NCBI RefSeq assembly: GCF_029051645.1
Contig: NZ_JAACFS010000002.1
Coordinates: forward strand, 372,001-436,000
Length of the DNA: 64,000 bases
Source of the DNA: Bradyrhizobium sp. CSA112
GTDB taxonomy: Bacteria > Pseudomonadota > Alphaproteobacteria > Rhizobiales > Xanthobacteraceae
Direction of reading: 5' to 3'
The notes below the pieces were generated by a model. That model had not been told where the DNA came from. It did not search any database and saw only the letters and a program-made list of their open reading frames with translations. Positions 29,319 through 42,140 of the stretch are shown in pieces. A program made the translations under genes and the position numbers. The stretch's first letter is position 1, and each line of letters opens with the position of its first letter.

Positions 29319-30020
29319 ATGGGTCAAAAGATCAATCCAATCGGACTGCGTCTCGGCATCAACCGCACCTGGGATTCGCGGTGGTTCGCCGGCAAGAACG
29401 AGTACGGCAAGCTGCTGCATGAAGACGTCAAGATCCGCGAGATCCTGCACAAGGAGCTCAAGCAGGCGGCCGTCGCCCGCATCGTGATCGAGCGTCCGCA
29501 CAAGAAGTGCCGCGTGACGATTCATTCGGCGCGTCCCGGCGTCGTGATCGGCAAGAAGGGCGCCGACATCGACAAGCTGCGCAAGCGCGTTGCCGACATT
29601 ACGGCTTCCGACGTCGTCATCAACATCGTCGAAATCCGCAAGCCCGAACTCGATGCCACCCTGGTCGCCGAATCGATCGCCCAGCAGCTCGAGCGCCGCG
29701 TCGCGTTCCGCCGCGCCATGAAGCGGGCGGTGCAGTCGGCGATGCGTCTTGGCGCCGAAGGCATTCGTATCAACTGCTCGGGCCGTCTCGGCGGCGCGGA
29801 AATCGCGCGCATGGAGTGGTACCGCGAGGGGCGCGTGCCGTTGCACACGCTGCGCGCCGACGTCGATTACGGCGTGGCGACGGCGTTCACCACGTTCGGC
29901 ACCTGCGGCGTCAAGGTCTGGATCTTCAAGGGCGAGATCCTCGAGCACGATCCGATGGCCCAGGACAAGAAGATGGCCGAAGGCGACACTGCACGGCCGC
30001 GCCGCGACGCCGCTGCGTGA
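29319..30020 (+). CDS. rpsC: 30S ribosomal protein S3
   Basis: S3 helps form the mRNA entry tunnel and the ribosomal helicase. The 233-residue product starts [20 protein letters not shown] and has the KH-domain loop [14 protein letters not shown] plus the C-terminal GEILEHDP region. It is followed by rplP 32 nt on. Confidence 0.98.
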
Positions 30021-30052
30021 GACATCAGAAGAAGGTTTGAGGGCTTAAAGCC

Positions 30053-30466
30053 ATGATGCAACCAAAGAAAACGAAGTTCCGGAAGGCGCATAAGGGCCGT
30101 ATCCACGGCGTTGCGACTTCGGGTGCGACGTTGTCGTTCGGTCAATTCGGTCTGAAGGCGATGGCGCCCGAGCGCATCACCGCCCGCCAGATCGAAGCCG
30201 CACGCCGCGCGCTGACCCGTCACATGAAACGCGCCGGCCGCGTCTGGATCCGCGTGTTCCCGGACCTGCCGGTGTCGAAGAAGCCCGCCGAAGTCCGCAT
30301 GGGTTCCGGCAAGGGCACGCCGGAATTGTGGGTGGCGCGGGTCAAGCCCGGCCGCGTGATTTTCGAAATCGACGGCGTCAACGTGCAGACCGCGAAGGAA
30401 GCGCTCACGCTCGCCGCCGCCAAGCTGCCGATCAAGACGCGCTTCGTCGCGCGCATTGCGGAGTAA
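30053..30466 (+). CDS. rplP: 50S ribosomal protein L16
   Basis: L16 organises the A-site side of the peptidyl-transferase region. The 137-residue product has the conserved [14 protein letters not shown] and [20 protein letters not shown] blocks. Two adjacent ATG codons (30053 and 30056) could start it; the first gives the usual MMQPKKTK. Confidence 0.98.
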
Positions 30467-30471
30467 CCGTC

Positions 30472-30678
30472 ATGGCCCCGATGAAAGTTGAAGACATCCG
30501 CGCGATGAGCGACGACCAGAGGGAGGACGCCGTCCTCAATCTGAAGAAGGAGCGTTTCAATCTGCGTTTCCAGCGCGCCACCGGGCAGTTGGAGAACACC
30601 TCGCGGCTGCGTGAAGCCCGCCGCGACATCGCCCGCATCAAGACCATCGCCGCGCAGGTTCGCGCGAAGAAGAAGTAA
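30472..30678 (+). CDS. rpmC: 50S ribosomal protein L29
   Basis: L29 is a small two-helix protein near the tunnel exit. The 68-residue product ([12 protein letters not shown]...) has the typical NLRFQ and [13 protein letters not shown] helices. The ATG at 30472 follows rplP by 5 nt; an ATG at 30481 is possible. A longer frame starting inside rplP is not the real start. Confidence 0.96.
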
Positions 30679-30690
30679 GAGGCCTTTATT

Positions 30691-30939
30691 ATGCCGAAAC
30701 GTACCCTTCAGGGCGTGGTCGTGAGCGACAAGCAAGCCAAGACGGTGGTGGTGCGCGTCGATCGCCGCTTCACCCATCCGATCTACAAGAAGACGATCCG
30801 CCGCTCCAAGAACTATCACGCGCACGACGAGAACAACGAGTTCAAGCCGGGCGACATGGTGTGGATCGAGGAGAGCAAGCCGATCTCGAAGTTGAAGCGC
30901 TGGACCGTGGTCCGGGGCGAGCAGAAGAAAACGGCCTGA
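30691..30939 (+). CDS. rpsQ: 30S ribosomal protein S17
   Basis: S17 is an early-binding 30S protein of OB fold. The 82-residue product ([21 protein letters not shown]) contains the conserved [16 protein letters not shown] segment. It ends 85 nt before rplN, one of the larger gaps in this run; no terminator is visible there. Confidence 0.98.
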
Positions 30940-31024
30940 GGTTCGTTCGGCTAGGCCGGACGGGTTATCAGGGAAAATTTTAGGCGCTAATTCGAGCGCA
31001 TCAGAAAGAGGACGAGGTGCATCA

Positions 31025-31393
31025 ATGATTCAGATGCAGACCAACCTCGACGTGGCCGACAATTCAGGCGCACGCCGTGTCATGTGCATCAAGGTGCTGG
31101 GGGGCTCCAAGCGCCGCTATGCCACCGTGGGCGACGTTATCGTCGTGTCGATCAAGGAAGCCATCCCGCGCGGGAAGGTGAAGAAGGGCGACGTGATGAA
31201 GGCCGTCGTGGTGCGGGTCCGCAAGGATATCCGCCGCGCCGACGGTTCGGTCATCCGTTTCGACCGCAACGCCGCAGTGCTGATCAACAACCAGTCGGAG
31301 CCGGTCGGCACCCGTATCTTCGGGCCGGTGCCGCGCGAGCTGCGCGCCAAGAACCACATGAAAATCATCTCGCTTGCGCCGGAGGTGCTGTGA
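31025..31393 (+). CDS. rplN: 50S ribosomal protein L14
   Basis: L14 lies at the subunit interface and is the binding site of the silencing factor RsfS. The 122-residue product starts [19 protein letters not shown] and ends with the FGPVPRELR... block of the family. It opens the spc part of the run. Its TGA overlaps the rplX ATG by one base (TGATG). Confidence 0.98.
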
Positions 31394-31699
31394 TGGCTGC
31401 CAAGATCCGGAAAGGTGACAAGGTCATCGTGCTGAGCGGCCGCGACAAGGGCCGTACCGGCGAGGTATTCGAGGTCCGCCCCGCCGAGAACAAGGCGCTG
31501 GTGCGCGGCGTCAACATGGTGAAGCGTCACCAGAAGCAGACCCAGAACCAGGAAGGCGGCATCATCTCCAAGGAGTCGCCGATCCACCTGTCCAACATCG
31601 CCTATGTCGGCAAGGACGGAAAGCCGACCCGCGTGGGCTTCAAGATTCAGGCTGATGGCAAGAAGGTACGCATTGCCAAGAGCTCGGGAGCAGAGATCG

Positions 31700-31707
<8 letters not shown>
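31393..31707 (+). CDS. rplX: 50S ribosomal protein L24
   Basis: L24 starts 50S assembly with L3. The 104-residue product ([20 protein letters not shown]) has the KOW motif near its N-terminus and the standard length. The start at 31393 overlaps the rplN stop by 1 nt, and its end overlaps rplE by 8 nt, so the three are translationally coupled. Confidence 0.98.
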
Positions 31708-32257
<550 letters not shown>

Positions 32258-32301
32258 GACGCAGTTAAAGCCTCTCAAACGCGGAAACCCAGGAGCCAAG
32301 C

Positions 32302-32607
32302 ATGGCAAAGAAGAGTTCGATCGAGAAGAACAACCGGCGCAAGCGGATGGCCAAGAACGCCGCGCCTGCGCGCGCGAAGCTGAAGGCGATCATCGCCGAC
32401 AAGACCCGGCCGATGGAAGAGCGGTTTGCGGCGACGCTGAAGCTTGCCCAGATGCCGCGCAATTCGTCGACGACGCGCATCCGCAACCGTTGCGAACTGA
32501 CCGGTCGTCCGCGCTCGAACTACCGCAAGAACAAGCTCAGCCGCATCGCGCTGCGTGAACTCGGCTCCAAGGGCCTGGTTCCCGGGCTCGTGAAGTCGAG
32601 CTGGTAA
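32302..32607 (+). CDS. rpsN: 30S ribosomal protein S14 (long, non-zinc form)
   Basis: S14 belongs to the 30S head. The 101-residue product is the long form without the CxxC zinc pairs of the short type. It has [17 protein letters not shown] at the start and [19 protein letters not shown] near the C-terminus. It lies between rplE and rpsH as expected. Confidence 0.98.
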
Positions 32608-32621
32608 GGAGGGTCGTCAAG

Positions 32622-33020
32622 ATGTCAACGCACGATCCGATCTCCGATCTCATCACCCGCATCCGCAACGCGCAGATGCGTTCCAAGTCCAAGGTCTCGA
32701 CCCCGGGCTCGAAAATGCGCGCCAGCGTGCTCGAAGTGCTGAAGTCGGAGGGCTACATCCGTGGCTACGCCAGCGTCGAACACGCCTCGGGCCGCAGCGA
32801 GCTCGAGATTGAGCTGAAGTATTTCGACGGCGAGCCGGTCATTCGCGAGATCGAGCGGGTCTCCAAGCCGGGCCGCCGGGTTTACGCTTCGGTGAAGAAC
32901 CTGCCGCGCGTGAACAACGGTCTCGGCATTTCGGTGTTGTCGACGCCGAAGGGAATCATGGCTGACCACGAAGCGCGCGACGCGAACGTGGGCGGCGAAG
33001 TTCTCTTCACGGTGTTCTGA
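32622..33020 (+). CDS. rpsH: 30S ribosomal protein S8
   Basis: S8 binds 16S helix 21 and, in E. coli, represses the spc operon by binding near the L5 start. The 132-residue product has [17 protein letters not shown] and the C-terminal [20 protein letters not shown]. Its spacing to rplF is 15 nt. Confidence 0.98.
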
Positions 33021-33035
33021 GGAAGGATTTGAGCC

Positions 33036-33569
33036 ATGTCACGTGTTGGCAAACGGCCTGTGGCGATCCCGTCCGGTGTGACGGCGACCGTCGAGGGACA
33101 GACCGTCAAGGTGAAGGGGCCGAAGGGCCAGCTTCAGTTCGTCGTGCATGACGACGTCGAGGTGAAGTTCGAAAGCGGTGAGGTCAAGGTCGCGCCGAAG
33201 TTCAAGACCAACCGCGCGCAGGCCATGTACGGCACCGCGCGTGCGCAGGTCGCGAACCTGGTCGAGGGCGTCACCAAGGGCTTCGAGAAGAAGCTCGAGA
33301 TCACCGGCGTCGGCTACCGCGCCGCGATGCAGGGCAAGAACCTGCAGCTCGCGCTCGGCTACAGTCACGACGTGGTCTACGCGATCCCGGAAGGCATCAC
33401 CATCGCAGTGCCGAAGCCGACCGAGATCACGATCACGGGCACCGATTCGCAGCGCGTCGGCCAGGTCGCGGCCGAGATCCGCGCCTACCGTCCGCCGGAG
33501 CCCTACAAGGGCAAGGGCGTGAAGTACGCCAACGAATTCATCTTCCGCAAGGAAGGCAAGAAGAAGTAA
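33036..33569 (+). CDS. rplF: 50S ribosomal protein L6
   Basis: L6 sits beside the factor-binding site and supports EF-G action. The 177-residue product ([17 protein letters not shown]) has two repeated domains and ends with the conserved [14 protein letters not shown] block. It is in the standard spc order. Confidence 0.98.
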
Positions 33570-33580
33570 CGGAGCCGGTC

Positions 33581-33940
33581 ATGTCACTCAAGGTCACGAA
33601 TGCCCGGCGCAAGCAGCGCGTGCGCAACGCGCTGCGCCGGTCCGCCAATGGACGCCCGCGTCTATCGGTATTCCGTTCGTCGAAGCACATCTACGCCCAG
33701 GTCATCGACGACCTGAAGGGCGAGACGCTGGCTTCCGCCTCGTCGCTGGAAAAGACCATGCGCGAGGGCGGCAATACGGGCGCCAACATCGATGCGGCCA
33801 AGGCCGTCGGCAAGCTGCTGGCGGAACGCGCCGTGCAGAACGGCGTCAAGGAAGTGGTGTTCGATCGCGGTCAGTATCTGTATCACGGGCGCGTCAAGGC
33901 GCTTGCGGATGCGGCCCGCGAAAGCGGACTGAGCTTCTAA
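33581..33940 (+). CDS. rplR: 50S ribosomal protein L18
   Basis: L18 binds 5S rRNA together with L5. The 119-residue product shows [18 protein letters not shown] and the C-terminal [21 protein letters not shown] small hairpin lies in the 62-nt gap before rpsE, within 33967-33985. Confidence 0.98.
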
Positions 33941-34002
33941 CGAACCGGTTTTGGATAATTACGAGGACAGGGGCTTTCTTCCCCTAAAGATTGGAAAACA
34001 CC

Positions 34003-34578
34003 ATGGCAGGTGAACGCGAACGCGGCGGACGCGAACGGAGCAGGGATCGCGATGAGCGCGACAGCGAGTTCGTCGACAAGCTGGTCCACATCAATCGCGT
34101 GGCGAAGGTCGTCAAGGGCGGCAAGCGCTTCGGCTTTGCGGCGCTGGTCGTGATCGGCGACCAGAAGGGCCGGGTCGGTTTCGGCCACGGCAAGGCGCGC
34201 GAAGTTCCCGAGGCGATCCGCAAGGCGACCGAGTCGGCCAAGCGCAACCTGACGCGCGTGGCGCTGCGCGAAGGCCGCACGCTGCATCACGACATTGCCG
34301 GCCGCCATGGCGCCGGCCGCGTCTACCTGCGCGCCGCTCCGGCCGGTACCGGCATCATCGCCGGCGGCCCGATGCGCGCGGTATTCGAAACGCTCGGCAT
34401 CCAGGACGTGGTGGCGAAGTCGATCGGCTCGTCGAATCCCTACAACATGGTTCGCGCGACCTTCGATGCGCTGAAGCATCAGGATTCGCCGCGTTCGGTG
34501 GCCGCCCGCCGCAACATCAAGGTGTCCACGCTGCAGTCGCGCCGCGTCGGCGGCGATGCCGAAGTGGTGGCTGAATAA
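34003..34578 (+). CDS. rpsE: 30S ribosomal protein S5
   Basis: S5 lines the mRNA entry and influences decoding fidelity. The 191-residue product starts [20 protein letters not shown]; the basic, charged N-terminal tail is typical in this order. The double-stranded RNA-binding core follows ([20 protein letters not shown]). ATG 34003 is preferred to a TTG at 33991. Confidence 0.98.
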
Positions 34579-34615
34579 CCGGCGCGATTTTTAAGCGCTC
34601 TTTGGAGTTAAGACG

Positions 34616-34810
34616 ATGGCCAAGGCCGCAAAGACGATCAAGGTCGAGCAGACCGGCAGCGCAATCCGCCGCCATCACTCGCAGCGTGCGACGCTGATCG
34701 GCCTCAAGCTCAACAAGATCGGTCGTGTCACTGAGCTGCAGGACACGCCTGCAATTCGCGGCATGATCGCCAAGGTTCAACATCTCGTCCGCGTCGTCGG
34801 CGAGAAGTAA
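34616..34810 (+). CDS. rpmD: 50S ribosomal protein L30
   Basis: A small 50S protein of 64 residues, with [21 protein letters not shown] and [13 protein letters not shown] typical of the family. It lies between rpsE and rplO in the standard order and has GGAG before its start. Confidence 0.97.
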
Positions 34811-34826
34811 GTAAGGAGACAGGGCG

Positions 34827-35315
34827 ATGAAGCTCAGCGATATCGCCGACAACGCCGGCTCGCGCAAGAAGCGCATGCGCGTCGGCCGTGGCATCGGTTC
34901 GGGCAAGGGCAAGACCTCGGGCCGCGGCGGCAAGGGCCAGACCGCGCGTTCGGGCGTGCGCATCAAGGGCTTCGAGGGCGGCCAGATGCCGCTGCATCGC
35001 CGCCTGCCGAAGCGCGGCTTCAACAACATCTTCCGGCTCGACTTCGCCGAGATCAATCTCGACCGGCTGCAGCAGGCGATCGATTCCAAGCTGGTCGACG
35101 TCAAGGAAACCGTCACCGTCGAATCGCTGGTGAAGGCCGGCGTGATCCGTCGCGCCAAGGACGGCCTGCGGCTGCTCGGCCGCGGCGAGCTCAAGGCCAA
35201 GCTGGCGATCGAGGTGCATGGCGCCTCGAAATCCGCGATCGCGGCGGTCGAGAAGGCCGGCGGCACGGTGAAGATCCTGGCCCCGGCCAAGAAGGATGAA
35301 GGCGAGGCGGCGTAA
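34827..35315 (+). CDS. rplO: 50S ribosomal protein L15
   Basis: L15 is a late-assembly 50S protein. The 162-residue product has the Gly/Lys-rich N-terminus ([20 protein letters not shown]) and [18 protein letters not shown]. It has AAGGAG before its ATG. A 146-nt gap with a hairpin at 35326-35349 separates it from secY. Confidence 0.98.
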
Positions 35316-35325
35316 CATCTGCGTC

Positions 35326-35349
35326 ATCGCCCGCTCAATCGCGGGCGAT
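35326..35349 (+). repeat. 9-bp palindrome between rplO and secY
   Basis: Arms 35326-35334 and 35341-35349 are exact complements around a 6-nt loop. Its place just after the rplO stop suggests partial termination or mRNA processing before secY. There is no T-tract. Confidence 0.6.
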
Positions 35350-35461
35350 CCGCACGGTAGGATGATGGACTTATCGAAGCCGAGCACCAAATAATGTCCG
35401 GCGTCTGCCGATCGCCCCGCCAGGGGCGACGGCCTGAGGGACGGCGGGAGAAAGCCTGAAC

Positions 35462-36793
35462 ATGGTCTCAGCAGCAGAACAACTTGCGGCAAACCTCAAC
35501 TTCGGCGCACTGGCGAAAGCCGACGAACTGAAGAAGCGCATCTGGTTCACGCTGGGTGCGCTGCTTGTTTATCGGCTCGGCACCTATATCCCGCTGCCCG
35601 GCATCGATCCCGCGGCCTGGGAGCAGGTGTTCAAGTCGCAGGCCGGCGGCATCCTCGGCATGTTCAACATGTTCGCCGGCGGCGGCATCAACCGCATGGC
35701 GATCTTCGCGCTGAACATCATGCCGTACATCTCGGCATCGATCATCATCCAGCTCTTGACCACCGTATCGCCCAAGCTCGAAGCGCTGAAGAAGGAAGGC
35801 GAGGCTGGCCGCAAGACGCTGAACCAGTATACCCGCTACCTCACGGTGATCCTCGCCACGTTCCAGGCCTACGGCATCGCCGTCGGCCTCCAGGGCGCCG
35901 GTAACGTCGTCAGTGAACCCGGGCTGTTCTTCCTGATTTCCACCACGGTCACGCTGACCGGCGGCACCATGTTCCTGATGTGGCTCGGCGAGCAGATCAC
36001 CTCGCGCGGCATTGGCAACGGTATTTCGCTGATCATTCTGGCCGGCATCGTTGCCGAGCTGCCGTCTGCTCTCGCCAACATGCTGGAACTGGGACGCCAG
36101 GGCGCGCTCTCGACCGGGCTGATCCTGCTGGTGATCGCGATGGCGATCGTCGTGATCGCCTTCATCGTGTTCATGGAGCGCGCGCAGCGGCGGCTTTTGA
36201 TCCAGTATCCGAAGCGACAGGTCGGCAACAAGATGTTCGAGGGCCAGTCCTCGCATCTGCCGCTCAAGCTGAACACCTCGGGCGTGATCCCGCCGATCTT
36301 TGCCTCCTCGCTGTTGCTGCTGCCGGCGACGGTTGCGAACTTCAATGCCGGCCAGGGCCCGGAATGGTTCCAGTGGCTCAACACCCAGCTCAGCCACGGC
36401 CGTCCGCTATTTCTGATCCTCTACCTGAGCCTGATCGTGTTCTTCGCCTTCTTTTACACCGCGATCGTGTTCAACCCGACCGAGACCGCCGACAATCTGA
36501 AGAAGCATGGCGGCTTCATCCCGGGCATCCGTCCGGGCGAGCGCACCGCCGAATATATCGATTACGTGCTGTCGCGCGTTACGGTGCTCGGCGCGATCTA
36601 TCTGGCGATCGTCTGTCTGATTCCCGAGATCCTGATTTCCTATGCGTCGGTGCCGTTCTACTTCGGCGGCACATCGCTTCTGATCGTCGTCAGCGTGACC
36701 ATGGATACGGTGGCGCAGGTGCAGGGCTATCTCCTGGCCCATCAGTATGAGGGGCTGATCAGGAAATCCAAGCTGAGGGGTCGCCGCCGCTGA
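35462..36793 (+). CDS. secY: Protein translocase subunit SecY
   Basis: The channel-forming subunit of the SecYEG translocon in the inner membrane. The 443-residue product has ten hydrophobic segments in the expected pattern, including GIDPAAWEQVF, FNMFAGGGINRMAIFAL, MWLGEQITSRGIGNGISL and the cytosolic loop PKRQVGNKMFEGQSSHLP with its ribosome/SecA-contacting basic residues. It ends the spc block; rpmJ, which follows secY in many bacteria, is absent here. Confidence 0.98.
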   Translation: MVSAAEQLAANLNFGALAKADELKKRIWFTLGALLVYRLGTYIPLPGIDPAAWEQVFKSQAGGILGMFNMFAGGGINRMAIFALNIMPYISASIIIQLLTTVSPKLEALKKEGEAGRKTLNQYTRYLTVILATFQAYGIAVGLQGAGNVVSEPGLFFLISTTVTLTGGTMFLMWLGEQITSRGIGNGISLIILAGIVAELPSALANMLELGRQGALSTGLILLVIAMAIVVIAFIVFMERAQRRLLIQYPKRQVGNKMFEGQSSHLPLKLNTSGVIPPIFASSLLLLPATVANFNAGQGPEWFQWLNTQLSHGRPLFLILYLSLIVFFAFFYTAIVFNPTETADNLKKHGGFIPGIRPGERTAEYIDYVLSRVTVLGAIYLAIVCLIPEILISYASVPFYFGGTSLLIVVSVTMDTVAQVQGYLLAHQYEGLIRKSKLRGRRR

Positions 36794-36861
36794 TCGGCGG
36801 ACTCTGAAATTCAATACAGGGTGCGCGGGGTTTCGCTCACCAAGCCGGGGGGCGAATAGTC

Positions 36862-37740
36862 ATGAGATTGATCCTTTTGGGTCCGCCGGGCGCGGGCAAG
36901 GGGACCCAGGCACAGCGGCTGGTTCAGAAGTACGGCATCGTCCAGCTCTCGACCGGCGAAATGCTGCGTGCGGCGGTCGCCGCGCAAACGCCGGTCGGCC
37001 TGCAGGCCAAGGACATCATGGCCAGCGGCTCCCTGGTGCCGGATGAGATCGTGATCGGGATCATCTCCGACCGTCTCGACCAGCCCGACATGAAGAACGG
37101 TTTCATCCTCGACGGCTTTCCGCGCACGGTGCCGCAGGCGGCGGCGCTCGACGATCTCCTGAAGAAGAAGCACATCAAGCTCGACGCCGTGATCGAATTG
37201 CGCGTCAACGAGAGCGCGCTTCTGAACCGCGTCGAGACGCGCGTCGCCGAGATGCAGGCCCGCGGCGAGGAAGTGCGAATCGACGACACTCCGGAAGTGC
37301 TGTCGAAGCGGCTGGCGAGCTACCGCTCGATGACCGAGCCGCTGATCCACTATTATTCGGAGCGGCGGAAGCTGGCGACGGTCGACGGGATGATGACCAT
37401 CGAACAGGTTACCCGCGAGATTAACCGGATCCTGGCTGCCGTCGGCGCGGTGGAACCCAGGGCGGTACCGGCCCGGAAGGCCAGGGGAGCCGCCAGGAGG
37501 ACCGCCAGGCCCGCGGGCAAAAAGGCTGCCAAAACCGCCAAGAAGGCCGTCAAGCAGGCGCGTAAGGCCGCCAAACCCGCCTCTAAGGCTTCCAAGGGGG
37601 CCAAAAAGGTGGGCAAGACGGCGGGCCGGAAGGCCGCTTCGCCGGTCAGGGGCCGGGGAGCCGGGACGGCCAAAAAGGCGACAAAAAAGGCTGTCCGGAA
37701 GGCTGCCAAAAAGGTCACGAAAAAGCGAGCTAAACGGTAG
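36862..37740 (+). CDS. adk: Adenylate kinase with histone H1-like C-terminal tail
   Basis: Adenylate kinase interconverts ATP + AMP and 2 ADP. Residues 1 to about 198 are a complete short-LID enzyme: P-loop GPPGAGKGT (7-15), LSTGEMLR, the AMP site [10 protein letters not shown] (84-93) and the short LID region without a zinc insertion. Residues 200-292 form a tail almost entirely of Lys, Ala, Arg, Gly, Pro and Thr in AAKK/AKKA repeats, like bacterial histone H1-like domains. The tail uses AGG arginine and AAA lysine codons more than the core. The family is normally about 190-220 residues. No frameshift is needed to make it. DNA or RNA binding by the tail is an inference. Confidence 0.96.
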
Positions 37741-37927
37741 AGGCGGTTGACGAAACCGAGTTGAATCCTTTAATAAGCCCCGCATCCAAGTCGGATAGTT
37801 TTTTGACGACGCCGGGCCCCGAAGCAGATGAGGGGAAGGGCGTCGTGTTCGCGTTTGCGGACACCTGCCCGAGATAGCAAGAACTTAAGGCCGTTTCCAT
37901 GAAGGATCGGCGACAGGAGAGAAGTCC
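37741..37927. promoter_or_regulatory. adk-rpsM leader with a long-range hairpin
   Basis: In this 187-nt gap ACGACGCC (37806-37813) can pair with GGCGTCGT (37839-37846), enclosing a GC-rich inner stem. It could be an operator for a ribosomal protein of the alpha block, or simply a stabilising fold; nothing decides. AGGAGA before 37928 is the rpsM ribosome binding site. Confidence 0.35.
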
Positions 37928-38296
37928 GTGGCCCGTATTGCCGGCGTGAATATCCCGACCAACAAGCGCGTTCTGATTGCGCTCCAGTACATCCATGGCA
38001 TCGGCCAGAAGAATGCGGCCGAGATCGTTGAAAAGGTCAAGATCCCCCTGGATCGTCGTGTCAGCCAGCTGAGCGACCAGGAAGTCCTGCAGATCCGCGA
38101 AGTGATCGACCGTGACTATCTCGTCGAAGGCGACCTTCGTCGCGAGACCGGCATCAACATCAAGCGTCTGATGGACCTCGGCTGCTATCGCGGCCTGCGT
38201 CATCGTCGCGGCCTGCCGGTGCGCGGCCAGCGCACCCACACCAATGCGCGCACGCGCAAGGGCCCGGCCAAGTCGATCGCTGGCAAGAAGAAGTAA
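37928..38296 (+). CDS. rpsM: 30S ribosomal protein S13
   Basis: S13 forms bridges from the 30S head to the 50S subunit and contacts the P-site tRNA. The 122-residue product starts with a GTG codon ([19 protein letters not shown]), after AGGAGA. It ends with the basic [19 protein letters not shown] tail. A hairpin repeat with a T run separates it from rpsK. Confidence 0.98.
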
Positions 38297-38310
38297 GGTT
38301 GGCGAATACG

Positions 38311-38371
38311 AAATAGCGAATGGCGAATAGGGGTCGAGCCTTACTATTCGCTATTCGCCACTCGCTTTTTT
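38311..38371 (+). repeat. Hairpin repeat with T-tract between rpsM and rpsK (same family as after tuf)
   Basis: The arms 38316-38330 and 38344-38358 pair over 15 bp with one G-U and a 13-nt loop. A T run follows at 38366-38371, which makes it look like an intrinsic terminator inside the alpha block. The words AATAGCGAATGGCGAATAG and CACTCGC are shared with the hairpin at 25690-25743. Confidence 0.8.
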
Positions 38372-38428
38372 AGGTGTAGCCGCTGGCACTACGGCGGCGT
38401 CTGAGATCACAGGAAAGGTTTTTAGGTA

Positions 38429-38818
38429 ATGGGCAAGGAAGCCACCCGCGTACGCCGCCGCGAACGCAAGAACATCGCCTCCGGCATCGCGCACGTGAAT
38501 TCGTCCTTCAACAACACGACCATCACCATCACCGACGCGCAGGGCAACACGATCGCCTGGTCCTCGGCCGGCACGATGGGCTTCAAGGGCTCGCGCAAGT
38601 CGACCCCCTATGCCGCGCAGGTCGCGGCCGAAGACGTTTCCAAGAAGGCGCAGGAACACGGCATGCGTACGCTGGAAGTGGAAGTTGCCGGCCCCGGTTC
38701 GGGCCGCGAATCGGCGCTTCGTGCGCTGCAGGCGGCGGGCTTCACTGTGACGTCGATCCGCGACGTGACGACGATCCCGCACAATGGTTGCCGTCCGCGC
38801 AAGCGCCGGCGGGTCTGA
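38429..38818 (+). CDS. rpsK: 30S ribosomal protein S11
   Basis: S11 lies on the 30S platform at the E site. The 129-residue product contains [20 protein letters not shown] and ends with [18 protein letters not shown], both conserved. In alphaproteobacteria rpsD is not between rpsK and rpoA, and it is absent here too. Confidence 0.98.
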
Positions 38819-38923
38819 TGTTCGATTGCGGGCGGTTTTGCCGCCCGCGATTGCTTTTGGAATTTTCCGCGGACTGATCCGCGATCTCCAACGCCGGTGA
38901 TTTGAAGGCAGATTGACTGGCCC

Positions 38924-39955
38924 ATGGGTGACAAAGTGACGATCCAGAAAAATTGGCAAGAACTCATTCGACCGAACAAGTTGCAGGTAACGCCGGGCTC
39001 CGACGCGACCCGGTTTGCGACCGTCGTTGCCGAGCCACTCGAGCGCGGCTTCGGTCAGACGCTCGGTAATGCGCTGCGCCGTATCCTGTTGTCGTCGCTG
39101 CAGGGCGCGGCCGTGCAATCGGTGCACATTGACGGCGTGCTGCACGAGTTCTCCTCGATCGCTGGCGTTCGCGAGGACGTCACCGACATCGTGCTCAACA
39201 TCAAGGACATCTCGATCAAGATGCAGGGCGAAGGCCCCAAGCGCATGGTCGTGAAGAAGTCGGGTCCGGGCGTTGTCACCGCCGGCGACATCCAGACCGT
39301 CGGCGACATCGTGGTGCTCAATCCCGATCTGCAGATCTGCACGCTGGACGAGGGCGCGGAAATCCGCATGGAGTTCACGGTCGCCGCCGGCAAGGGCTAT
39401 GTCGCCGCCGAGCGTAACCGCCCCGAGGACGCGCCGATCGGCCTGATCCCGGTCGACAGCCTGTTCTCGCCCGTGCGCAAGGTCTCCTACAAGGTCGAGA
39501 ACACCCGCGAGGGCCAAATCCTCGACTACGACAAGCTGACCATGACGATCGAGACCAACGGCGCGATCTCGCCGGAAGACGCGGTGGCCTATGCCGCCCG
39601 CATCCTGCAGGATCAGCTCAACGTGTTCGTGAACTTCGAAGAGCCGCGCAAGGAAGTGGCGCAGGAGATCATCCCCGATCTCGCCTTCAACCCGGCGTTT
39701 CTCAAGAAGGTCGACGAGCTCGAACTGTCGGTGCGTTCGGCAAACTGCCTGAAGAACGACAACATCGTCTATATCGGCGACCTCGTGCAGAAGTCGGAAG
39801 CGGAAATGCTCCGCACCCCGAACTTCGGCCGCAAGTCGCTGAACGAGATCAAGGAAGTGCTGGCCCAGATGGGTCTGCATCTCGGCATGGAAGTGCCGGG
39901 CTGGCCGCCGGAGAATATCGACGAGCTCGCCAAGCGCTTCGAAGATCACTACTGA
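38924..39955 (+). CDS. rpoA: RNA polymerase alpha subunit
   Basis: The alpha dimer scaffolds RNA polymerase assembly, and its C-terminal domain reads upstream promoter DNA and activators. The 343-residue product has the dimerisation domain ([20 protein letters not shown]) and, from about 255, the C-terminal domain with [12 protein letters not shown] and [19 protein letters not shown] strong terminator-like hairpin follows, ahead of rplQ. Confidence 0.99.
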
Positions 39956-39969
39956 TCGAACAATAAGTC

Positions 39970-39999
39970 AAAGCGCGATGATGTTTCATCGCGCTTTTT
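39970..39999 (+). terminator. Terminator-like hairpin between rpoA and rplQ
   Basis: A perfect 12-bp stem (39970-39981 with 39986-39997) is closed by a TGTT loop, and the 3' arm runs into a T5 tract ending at 39999. It is 14 nt after rpoA and should reduce or end transcription before rplQ. Confidence 0.85.
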
Positions 40000-40078
40000 A
40001 ACGGGCGAACGCAGGCAGCCCACCTGAGCAGCAAGTCCGACGAACCGTCGCGACGAAGACAAATCAAGGAATAGATCA

Positions 40079-40495
40079 ATGCGTCACGGCAAGGTTCATC
40101 GTAAGCTCAACCGCACCGCCGAGCATCGCCGCGCGATGTTCGCCAACATGTGCGCCGCGCTGATCAAGCACGAGCAGATCGTCACCACGCTGCCGAAGGC
40201 CAAGGAATTGCGCCCGATCGTCGAGAAGCTGATCACCCTCGGCAAGAAGGGTGGGCTCGCCATGCGCCGCCAGGCGATCTCCGAGATGCGCGACAAGGAT
40301 CAGGTCCGCAAGCTGTTCGATACGCTGGCGCCCCGCTACAAGGACCGCCAGGGCGGCTACACCCGCATCATCAAGGCCGGCTTCCGCTACGGCGACAACG
40401 CGCCGATGGCGGTGATCGAGTTCGTCGACCGCGACGTCGACGCCAAGGGCCTGGATTCCGGCCCGGTGCAGGAAAAGTCCGCCGAAGCGGCGTAA
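40079..40495 (+). CDS. rplQ: 50S ribosomal protein L17
   Basis: L17 sits on the back of the 50S subunit near the tunnel exit. The 138-residue product ([20 protein letters not shown]) has the family start and the [20 protein letters not shown] block. It is the last ribosomal gene of the run and ends before a strong terminator. Because a terminator also precedes it, it may rely on read-through or a promoter in 40000-40078. Confidence 0.98.
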
Positions 40496-40517
40496 GTCTT
40501 TCAAAATCGCAAGTTTC

Positions 40518-40548
40518 AAAAGCGGCGCTTCCAGCGCCGCTTTTTTTA
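40518..40548 (+). terminator. Rho-independent terminator after rplQ
   Basis: A perfect 12-bp stem (40518-40529 with 40533-40544) has a TCC loop and continues into a run of T. It closes the ribosomal gene run. Confidence 0.93.
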
Positions 40549-40690
40549 TTTGGTGTTCAAAACGCATACGATCTTCCAAACCGATCCAATGCGGTGTGAC
40601 GATCGCGGGAGCATCATTCTCGTTCTCGATAGTTCCCAGCCGGTAAGCGCCGCTCCCCAATCGCATCGCTCGCCCTAGAATGCCCTTTAA

Positions 40691-41080
40691 CTACGGAGCA
40701 CTACCGGTCGGCGCGTTGATCATGACTTCGATGTTGTATCCGTCAGGATCTAAGACGAAGCACGCGTAGTAATCCTCGCTGTAGGCGGGGCGAGGCCCAG
40801 GTGGACCATTATCCTGTGCGCCTGCGTCAAGCGCAGCTCGATAAAATCCGACGACCTCTTCCTTACTCTTTGCCCGAAAAGCCACATGCACGCGCGTATA
40901 CGGAGGAGGGCGTTCTGCCATTGCCGAACTTATTTCGAACAACCCATCACCAATATCAAACGCCCAGAAGATCCCTTCTTTACCAAATGAAATACTGTAC
41001 CCTAAAGGAGCGAACGACTTTTCATAGAAGTGCTTGCTTCTTTGGAGATCGCTTACAGCAATGGTGATGTGGTCGATCAT
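40691..41080 (-). CDS. VOC (glyoxalase/dioxygenase-fold) family protein
   Basis: A 129-residue single-domain vicinal-oxygen-chelate protein. It begins MIDHITIAVSDLQRSKHFYE, has a central RVHVAFRAKS strand with a metal-ligand His, and ends DYYACFVLDPDGYNIEVMI, where the Glu is the usual last metal ligand. Members act in glyoxalase-like, epimerase, dioxygenase or fosfomycin-resistance chemistry; this one cannot be assigned. ATG 41080 is preferred over TTG 41086. It is convergent with rplQ across the terminator, with about 135 nt of gene-free DNA between. Confidence 0.88.
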   Translation of the reverse strand: MIDHITIAVSDLQRSKHFYEKSFAPLGYSISFGKEGIFWAFDIGDGLFEISSAMAERPPPYTRVHVAFRAKSKEEVVGFYRAALDAGAQDNGPPGPRPAYSEDYYACFVLDPDGYNIEVMINAPTGSAP

Positions 41081-41361
41081 GGCCAACCTGCCCGTTAAGA
41101 CGTTTGCACGAACATAGGGACCGTAACGACGAATATTACCACACTGGGCGTACCGAGCGACGGGTCGCTAACAAACCTTGTCTGCGGCGGCGTCCGGGTC
41201 TGACCCCGATGGGGGTTGCCTCCAGAGCCGGATTTTCATCGCCTCGTCTGACGGGAGGCTCGCAGAGTCTATCAAGCGCACTTTTATTGGCCGACGCACC
41301 CGCGGCCTGGTTACCCCTGCGGCTTCATAGGAACCGTCGGAGCCCGTAGACGTTGACAGGT
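41081..41361. other. Gene-free interval
   Basis: This 281-nt stretch lies between divergent genes. I see no credible gene or RNA. It presumably holds the promoters of the VOC gene (minus) and the Gre-like gene (plus), but no clear -35/-10 pair was found. Confidence 0.4.
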
Positions 41362-41820
41362 ATGAGCAGAGCATTCGTCAAAGAAACACAGGACGTCGAA
41401 GATCTGCCTGATCGGCCGATCTCCGATCTTCCGAATGACGTGACGCCTGGGGGTCTCCACCAGATCGAACAAGCGTTGGCCGCGGCCGAGGCCGCCCATG
41501 CCGCAGCGCAATCCGCTGGCGACCGGGCAGCCCTGACCAGCGCCCGCCGCGACCTCCGCTATTGGAGTGCGCGCCGCGCCACAGCGACGGTGATTCCGGA
41601 GCCAACGGACAATTCGGTCGTGCGGCTCGGCCACACCGTCACCATCGTGCGCGACGATGACCGGCGACAGACGTTCCGGATCGTCGGCGAAGACGAGGCC
41701 GACCCCGCACGTGGGACAATCTCGCACGCGTCGCCGCTGGCGCGCGCGCTGTTCGGCAAGGGTGTCGGCGATGTCGGCGTCGTCGCCGGAGGTGAAGCAG
41801 AGATCGTCGAAATACGGTGA
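41362..41820 (+). CDS. GreA/GreB-family (Gre-like) protein
   Basis: A 152-residue protein that begins MSRAFVKE, as GreB-type transcript cleavage factors of rhizobia do. A short Ala-rich helical N-terminal part follows (residues 30-75), where full Gre factors have a long coiled coil. It ends in a FKBP-like C-terminal domain (FRIVGEDEADPARGTISHAS, then PLARALFGKGVGDVGVV). Gre factors enter the RNA polymerase secondary channel. The altered, Ala-rich N-terminus raises doubt whether cleavage activity is kept; an Rnk-like or competing role is possible. ATG at 41362 is chosen over TTG 41353. Confidence 0.82.
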   Translation: MSRAFVKETQDVEDLPDRPISDLPNDVTPGGLHQIEQALAAAEAAHAAAQSAGDRAALTSARRDLRYWSARRATATVIPEPTDNSVVRLGHTVTIVRDDDRRQTFRIVGEDEADPARGTISHASPLARALFGKGVGDVGVVAGGEAEIVEIR

Positions 41821-41843
41821 TCAATTGTGGTCGGAGGTTTGCG

Positions 41844-42140
41844 ATGTCGGCCTATGTTATTTCCGAAGTTGAGATGCGCGATGCGGCGGGTTTCGAGGCT
41901 TATCGCATCATCGCCGCGAAGACGATCGCGCAGTATGGCGGGCGCTATTTAGTCCGCCGCGGCGTCGCAAATTTGATCGAAGGCGGCCCACCACCGAAAA
42001 CCATCATTGTCGTCGAATTTCCAACGATGGAGCGTTTGCGCGAGTGGTACGGCTCGTCGGAATACGCGGAGGCTCTGAAGGTGCGGCAGACAGCGCTGAA
42101 TCGACGACTGATTTTCGTTGAGGGCGTCGCGCCAACTTGA
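41844..42140 (+). CDS. DUF1330 domain protein
   Basis: A 98-residue protein of the dimeric alpha+beta-barrel DUF1330 family (MSAYVISEVEMRDAAGFEAY, then IIVVEFPTMERLREWYGSSEY). Its length is normal. The start at 41844 is supported by GGAGG just upstream. The function of the family is not known. It is 23 nt downstream of the Gre-like gene and may share its transcript. Confidence 0.88.
   Translation: MSAYVISEVEMRDAAGFEAYRIIAAKTIAQYGGRYLVRRGVANLIEGGPPPKTIIVVEFPTMERLREWYGSSEYAEALKVRQTALNRRLIFVEGVAPT

Follow-up and report, generated by a model that had tools for sequence, protein, structure and literature searches.

In the 64-kb window, which is the whole stretch of DNA that was analysed, adk lies between secY and rpsM. 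The adk open reading frame runs for 292 codons without an internal stop, and its product consists of an adenylate kinase core that continues in the same frame into a strongly basic C-terminal tail. The features of the locus, by position in the window, are as follows.

35462–36793, + strand: secY, the upstream neighbour of adk (named from sequence and operon order)
36862–37740, + strand: adk, encoding a 292-aa adenylate kinase with a C-terminal polycationic tail (whole open reading frame including the stop codon)
36862–37437, + strand: short-form adenylate kinase core, residues 1–192 (Pfam, NCBIfam, alignment and AlphaFold2)
37438–37737, + strand: Lys/Ala/Arg-rich tail, residues 193–292, net charge +37 (composition, AlphaFold2, and constraint on charge and reading frame)
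37928–38296, + strand: rpsM, encoding S13, the downstream neighbour of adk (named from sequence and operon order)

The secY match ends 71 nt before adk and rpsM begins 187 nt past the adk stop codon. Across the loci examined, secY was found 5′ of adk in most of those that reached far enough, and rpsM was found 3′ of adk in most of the alphaproteobacterial ones. Four Bradyrhizobium genomes (L007, L045, L055 and L080) have an additional SecY-like gene between secY and adk, with about 42% identity to the SecY of the window, and judged by spacing so do L047 and L048; the 64-kb window has no second SecY-like gene.

The core matched the Pfam family ADK (PF00406; E 2.7e-56, 190.4 bits against a cut-off of 26.8) and the whole protein matched the NCBIfam model NF010381/PRK13808 (435.6 bits, cut-off 426). 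In an alignment of 25 sequences, the P-loop, the DGFPR stretch and a set of arginines were invariant (G7, G12–A17, D84–R88, R36, R123, R127, R139 and R150), and we take these P-loop, NMP-binding and arginine residues to be the catalytic ones. The long LID insertion is absent, this region being about 20 residues shorter than in L088, L099 and L112. The core otherwise appears to be an ordinary adenylate kinase, intact as judged from its sequence. The reading frame, the Pfam and NCBIfam matches and the composition together bear out the initial annotation, which had described a full-length short-type adenylate kinase followed in frame by a Lys/Ala/Arg tail. An earlier stop near residue 200, masked by a sequencing error, was looked for and none was found. 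The source genome contains two further adk paralogues (L002 and L003, at G000:C88:61576 and G000:C108:527834, respectively), both without such a tail and neither found beside rpsM or secY. The product of L003, at 179 aa, is the shorter one and has a divergent end.

Composition of the tail and its distribution

The 100 residues past residue 192 include 25% Lys, 13% Arg and 29% Ala with only 1% Asp and Glu, giving the net charge of +37, and proline accounts for about 4–5% (median 4.3% over the 104 tails described below). When 90-aa stretches in all six frames of the window were surveyed, 37420–37737 was the sole place with this make-up. AlphaFold2, run with the 25-sequence alignment, gave pLDDT values mostly of 83–95 in the core and of 42–49 per block, with no secondary structure, for residues 201–292, and the tail is predicted to be intrinsically disordered. 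It is therefore Lys/Ala-rich, poor in acidic residues and predicted to be disordered, as are the H1-like tails of other bacterial proteins, and in make-up the H1-like label given to it initially was appropriate. The description of the tail as AAKK repeats held only in a wider form. The exact tetrapeptides AAKK (once, P 0.40) and AKKA (twice, P 0.09), whose excess over composition is the further mark of H1-like tails, were no more frequent than composition gives, whereas the broader pattern [AT]KK[AVT] occurred five times against 0.9 expected (5000 shuffles, P 0.0004). Over the 104 tails, basic residues are spaced about four residues apart (lag 4, +0.34).

No Pfam family matched the tail, and a PDB search returned one match only, to a designed protein (E 0.5). 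The tail alone matched positions 251–335 of NF010381 (E 8e-4), and no homology beyond this Adk model was detected in Pfam, NCBIfam or the PDB, searches that are blunted by low complexity. Inside the tail, the heptamer A_AAA_AAG (37683–37689) matches the slippery sequence of dnaX frameshifting, and may well be a chance occurrence in Lys-rich DNA.

An alignment of adk from relatives, which had been proposed as a check, revealed the tail in 104 of 110 distinct complete adk genes with a core identity of at least 72%. The loci for this set were best matches and chosen regions rather than a random draw; rpsM had to lie downstream, and exact duplicates, genes cut by contig ends and loci without rpsM in reach were excluded. 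The 104 tails range from 69 to 229 aa (median 102), with 33–49% Lys and Arg, 20–37% Ala and 0–4.1% Asp and Glu. Named carriers include Bradyrhizobium valentinum, B. elkanii, B. retamae, Afipia birgiae and a Rhodopseudomonas MAG. An adk match was found in 289 of 295 sampled genomes of the same family, and in the genus of the source genome 25 of 26 genomes carry the tail, judged by an open frame of at least 286 aa. These numbers rule out a tail confined to this strain, and a tail created by a sequencing error was rejected on the same grounds.

The six untailed genes among the 110 were L033 and those of five genomes of a second genus (g20). L033, from G281, is the exception in the source genus: the frame is broken by one base near codons 183–186 (placed by eye) with the frame of the tail intact downstream, and the break, in a genome assembled as one contig, is either genuine or a sequencing error. 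In g20, adk is tailed in two other genomes (L011 and L020), and two more (G102 and G119), outside the loci read, have short adk open frames of 224 aa. Since five g20 genomes do without the tail, it is dispensable there.

A tree was built from 118 thinned adk cores, excluding L033. All 65 tailed rows fell on one side, which had 83 rows in total and 18 untailed ones, and the other side consisted of 35 more distant cores, all untailed, some with the same family code. The tail label changes 13 times over the tree and the starred branches force only three changes; as the root was not inferred, gains and losses of the tail are in general not separable. The three untailed rows of g20 that the tree includes are nested within tailed ones, which suggests that in this case the tail was lost. 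Further away, NF010381 scored above its cut-off in seven of 299 genomes sampled across the phylum, all seven in the family of the source genome, and in 20 further regions, one of them a paralogue in a genome of the source genus and the rest belonging to other families and classes, Adk extends only 0–9 residues past the core.

Selection on the tail and its codon usage

Selection was examined in 30 independent pairs of close relatives, with the last 12 tail codons excluded. Substitutions in the tail at codon positions 1, 2 and 3 numbered 265, 296 and 562, against 48, 58 and 54 in the noncoding rpsM leader, and a position-specific mutation bias would need to be extreme to give this pattern. In the same pairs, 84 of 105 gaps in the tail were multiples of 3 compared with none of 39 in the leader, a difference to be read with the caveat that slippage of short codon repeats alone can give such gaps; the commonest gap lengths in the tail are 3 and 12 nt. 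Synonymous changes made up 396 of 721 single-base changes in the tail (55%, against 32% under random placement in the same tails), and the nonsynonymous/synonymous ratio was approximately 0.38. Protein-guided counts over 329 non-independent pairs returned this tail ratio again, with 0.10 in the core, and so constraint on the tail is weaker than that on the core; dS was 0.59 and 0.33, respectively, in these pairs.

The nature of the changes is more informative. One and the same transition, A↔G, converts Lys (AAR) to Arg (AGR) at codon position 2 and to Glu (GAR) at position 1, and the tails contained 55 Lys↔Arg exchanges but a single Lys↔Glu exchange (P 1.6e-15). Changes between Ala and Asp or Glu numbered four. 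What is kept is therefore positive charge and the lack of acid and not the sequence: the length and sequence of the tail drift, while its positive charge, its near-absence of acidic residues and its reading frame are shown to be maintained in these genes.

The codons of the tail differ from those of the core, as had been noticed at the outset. AAA encodes none of the ten Lys in the core of this gene and 36% of the 25 in its tail, and AGG none of the 16 Arg in the core and 46% of the 13 in the tail; in seven flanking genes the proportions were 5% (AAA) and 2% (AGG). Over all tails they were 34% and 25%, compared with 10% and 4% in the cores. The suggestion that this shift marks a tail joined later was not supported. 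Where a tail AGG codon differed between relatives (992 cases over the twelve commonest partners in the 329 non-independent pairs), it was aligned to AAG 627 times, to AAA 148 times and to CGG 72 times. Most tail AGG codons thus appear to be Lys/Arg exchanges made in place, one transition away from AAG, and relaxed codon choice can explain the rest of the shift, the higher dS of the tail pointing likewise. As AGG aligns mostly to AAG and the tail is common to most of the lineage examined, the codon shift is no evidence of recent joining, and late joining was rejected.

The end of adk and the rpsM leader

The last part of the tail differs from the rest. Most of the 104 tails share one 15-residue ending or close variants of it, with VTKKRAKR as the common end, and this segment together with the DNA following it contains these features.

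37708–37733, + strand: DNA block AAAAAGGTCACGAAAAAGCGAGCTAA, coding (KKVTKKRAK) and also conserved as DNA (from conservation)
37747–37776, + strand: promoter-like element of rpsM, consisting of TTGACG (37747–37752), 16 nt and TTTAATAA (37769–37776) (from conservation only)
37806–37846, + strand: conserved hairpin of the rpsM leader (base pairing maintained in nearly all of 24 sequences)

The block, which covers the last nine or so codons, is nearly fixed at synonymous sites. The Arg codon in the end motif is CGA in 66 of the 75 motif-bearing tails; of the 643 Arg codons in other parts of the tails, 35 are CGA. The DNA of the block is also unchanged in L038, where a single-base difference immediately 5′ of it shifts it out of the reading frame. 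Nothing else of the tail can be recognised in the five g20 genomes that lack it, and there the block persists as noncoding DNA with the same spacing.

The block lies directly 5′ of CGGTTGACG...TTTAATAA. This promoter-like element starts 6 nt past the adk stop codon in Bradyrhizobium-like rows; in Afipia and others it lies within the final codons, and the LTK of RLTKRR is there TTGACGAAA itself. It was found in 113 of the 129 loci tried. Among the matches listed it mostly precedes rpsM by 169–182 nt, and exceptionally by as much as 295 nt. The 16 misses included three of the 104 tails (L146, L156 and L157) and also the tailed L151; in L029, the wrong site was picked. A consensus promoter scan reported no promoter for this element, and the promoter reading therefore rests on conservation. 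The end block is apparently the upstream part of a putative rpsM promoter region, and the final codons of adk would then have a second role at the level of DNA. This constraint on the DNA would explain the common VTKKRAKR ending. The idea that this ending is a conserved protein-binding motif is weakened, given that its codons are nearly fixed and that its DNA is retained even in noncoding or out-of-frame positions. Annotators should be aware that this common C-terminal motif represents, at least in part, a DNA signal of a promoter region, and not only a protein motif.

The rpsM leader (37780–37927) is strongly conserved in 24 relatives and contains the hairpins ATCC..GGAT, ACGACGCC..GGCGTCGT (37806–37846) and TTCGC..GCGGA. 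No compensatory changes were found among the 24 sequences, and the nearest Rfam match in 30000–42000 was a sub-threshold Alpha_RBS at 37906–37960 (24.5 against 38 bits). The leader is possibly an autoregulatory leader of a ribosomal protein. In L040, L128, L132 and L140, insertions within it extend the distance between adk and rpsM to 226–280 nt, compared with the usual 160–190 nt or so. Between rpsM and the next ribosomal gene, 38301–38366 contains an inverted repeat of GCGAATA/CGAAT units (GGCGAATACGAAATAGCGAATGGCGAATAGG ... CTATTCGCTATTCGCCACTCGC).

Possible function of the tail and comparison with known systems

Other H1-like sequence was sought in the same genome. Besides the tail itself, a search by sequence returned three matches, with E values of 0.3–1.6 and stops inside. 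The degenerate pattern A-K-K-x-x-K-K-x, which misses looser tails and had no match in a reversed control, had nine matches in four places, namely adk and the following.

L234, nt 1315 onward: Lys/Ala-rich stretch in frame before methionyl-tRNA synthetase (enzyme named from sequence)
L242, 807–1754, − strand: N-terminal H1-like extension of endonuclease III
L239, 1282–1755: stand-alone H1-like open reading frame

The two other enzymes marked in this way thus act on nucleic acid.

By composition, the tail would fit binding to RNA, DNA, polyphosphate (polyP) or membrane, or self-association, equally well. Its H1-like make-up, predicted disorder, wide spread and selection for basic charge make the tethering of Adk to polyanions the best reading. 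We consider it probable that the tail serves as a polycationic, intrinsically disordered tether for an adenylate kinase that is otherwise ordinary and apparently intact, and that the tail binds polyanions electrostatically, most likely RNA and ribosomes or the nucleoid. By analogy with other basic tails, it should hold Adk near such polyanions, with RNA or the ribosome and DNA as the first choice of partner and polyP as the second. Tethering could concentrate the conversion of ATP and AMP to two ADP where AMP arises, in aminoacyl-tRNA synthesis and in DNA and RNA transactions. The position of adk in a ribosomal protein operon had also been read as a pointer to the ribosome. Untailed relatives share the order secY-adk-rpsM, so operon position adds nothing to the case for tethering and was rejected as evidence for it.

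A wider proposal, which we put forward tentatively and regard as rather less likely than the tether itself, is that this lineage organises its adenylate balance in space, with tailed Adk docked on ribosomes, nucleoid or polyP and recycling AMP on the spot, and with tail-less paralogues, where present, serving the cytosol. Adenylate kinase is a textbook soluble enzyme. If the tether is real, a core metabolic enzyme has been given an address in the bacterial cell, and this in a lineage to which nitrogen-fixing symbionts belong. Because both tailed and tail-less relatives occur naturally, the tether can be tested directly by truncation.

Among the alternatives, the one that survives best, though we think it unlikely, is that the tail targets Adk to polyP granules or polyP-rich regions of the nucleoid and helps to interconvert polyP and adenylate pools, rather than binding RNA or DNA. 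In favour of this reading, Adk and polyphosphate kinase act together in E. coli, and the selection for charge fits any polyanion. The histone H1-like protein AlgP, which has a KPAA domain of 154 aa, is reported to associate with polyP granules, the spacing of which requires its C-terminus (PMC9239181). Nothing in the sequence of the Adk tail singles out polyP, however; its proline content is low where AlgP has KPAA repeats, and the two other enzymes with such stretches are those acting on nucleic acid.

Slightly less likely again is that the tail is a tolerated low-complexity appendage with no job of its own, which grew in high-GC DNA as short codon repeats underwent slippage. The range of tail lengths, the gap lengths, a dS above that of the core and the lineages without a tail would all suit such an origin. 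It was already disfavoured by the under-representation of nonsynonymous changes and the near-absence of Lys↔Glu beside Lys↔Arg exchanges, and the presence of the tail in nearly all of the 110 genes, every tail being so poor in acidic residues, also speaks against it. Least probable is that the stretch is kept chiefly as nucleic acid, either as A-tract or UP-like DNA preceding the rpsM promoter or as a stretch of mRNA on which ribosomes are slowed between adk and rpsM: the nearly fixed codons of the end block, its CGA codon and its survival out of frame in L038 and as noncoding DNA in g20 agree with this for the end of the tail, but in the body upstream third positions vary most, the charge of the amino acids is what is kept and length varies more than threefold.

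With respect to known systems, NF010381/PRK13808 (335 positions) shares this architecture, to the extent that the match reveals it, and tailed Adk is already captured by this NCBI model and is not new to databases. The record gives a name and a model and has no word on the tail or its function. Among the papers listed from the open-access literature, which misses most subscription journals, none was on the tail or its function, judged by title or the opening of the abstract, and the one paper naming PRK13808 does so for a domain resemblance in a fungal protein. What is added here is a map of the tail over the lineage, a test of selection on its charge, an account of why codon usage shifts and the observation that the end of the tail overlaps the putative rpsM promoter region.

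The best family models for this Adk were bacterial adk models. Fap7, AK6 and hCINAP, which presumably belong to a different adenylate kinase family, provide a precedent for an Adk on the ribosome. They are reported to work in ribosome assembly (PMC4019466). In yeast, lysine-rich disordered regions are reported to concentrate snoRNPs near nascent rRNA (PMC11528048).

Closer in form are the C-terminal domains of AlgP and PhaF from Pseudomonas, which, like the Adk tail, are disordered, Lys/Ala-rich, of high net charge and joined to another domain. The reported net charges of these KPAA domains are +55 for AlgP and +35 for PhaF, and KPAA peptides are reported to bind DNA (PMC9239181). Unlike the Adk tail, they consist of KPAA repeats with much proline, and their carriers are granule or nucleoid proteins and not a metabolic enzyme. 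HupB and HbhA from Mycobacterium (AKKA/PAKKA) also have a Lys/Ala-rich C-terminal tail, and the AKKA-rich tail of HbhA is reported to be necessary and sufficient for DNA binding (PMC10665949). Their carriers, in contrast to Adk, are nucleoid-associated proteins, and AKKA in the Adk tail is not above composition. As no homology to known families beyond the Adk model was found for the tail, it may work in the way that the tails of AlgP, PhaF, HupB and HbhA do, and is not classed as a member of any of them.
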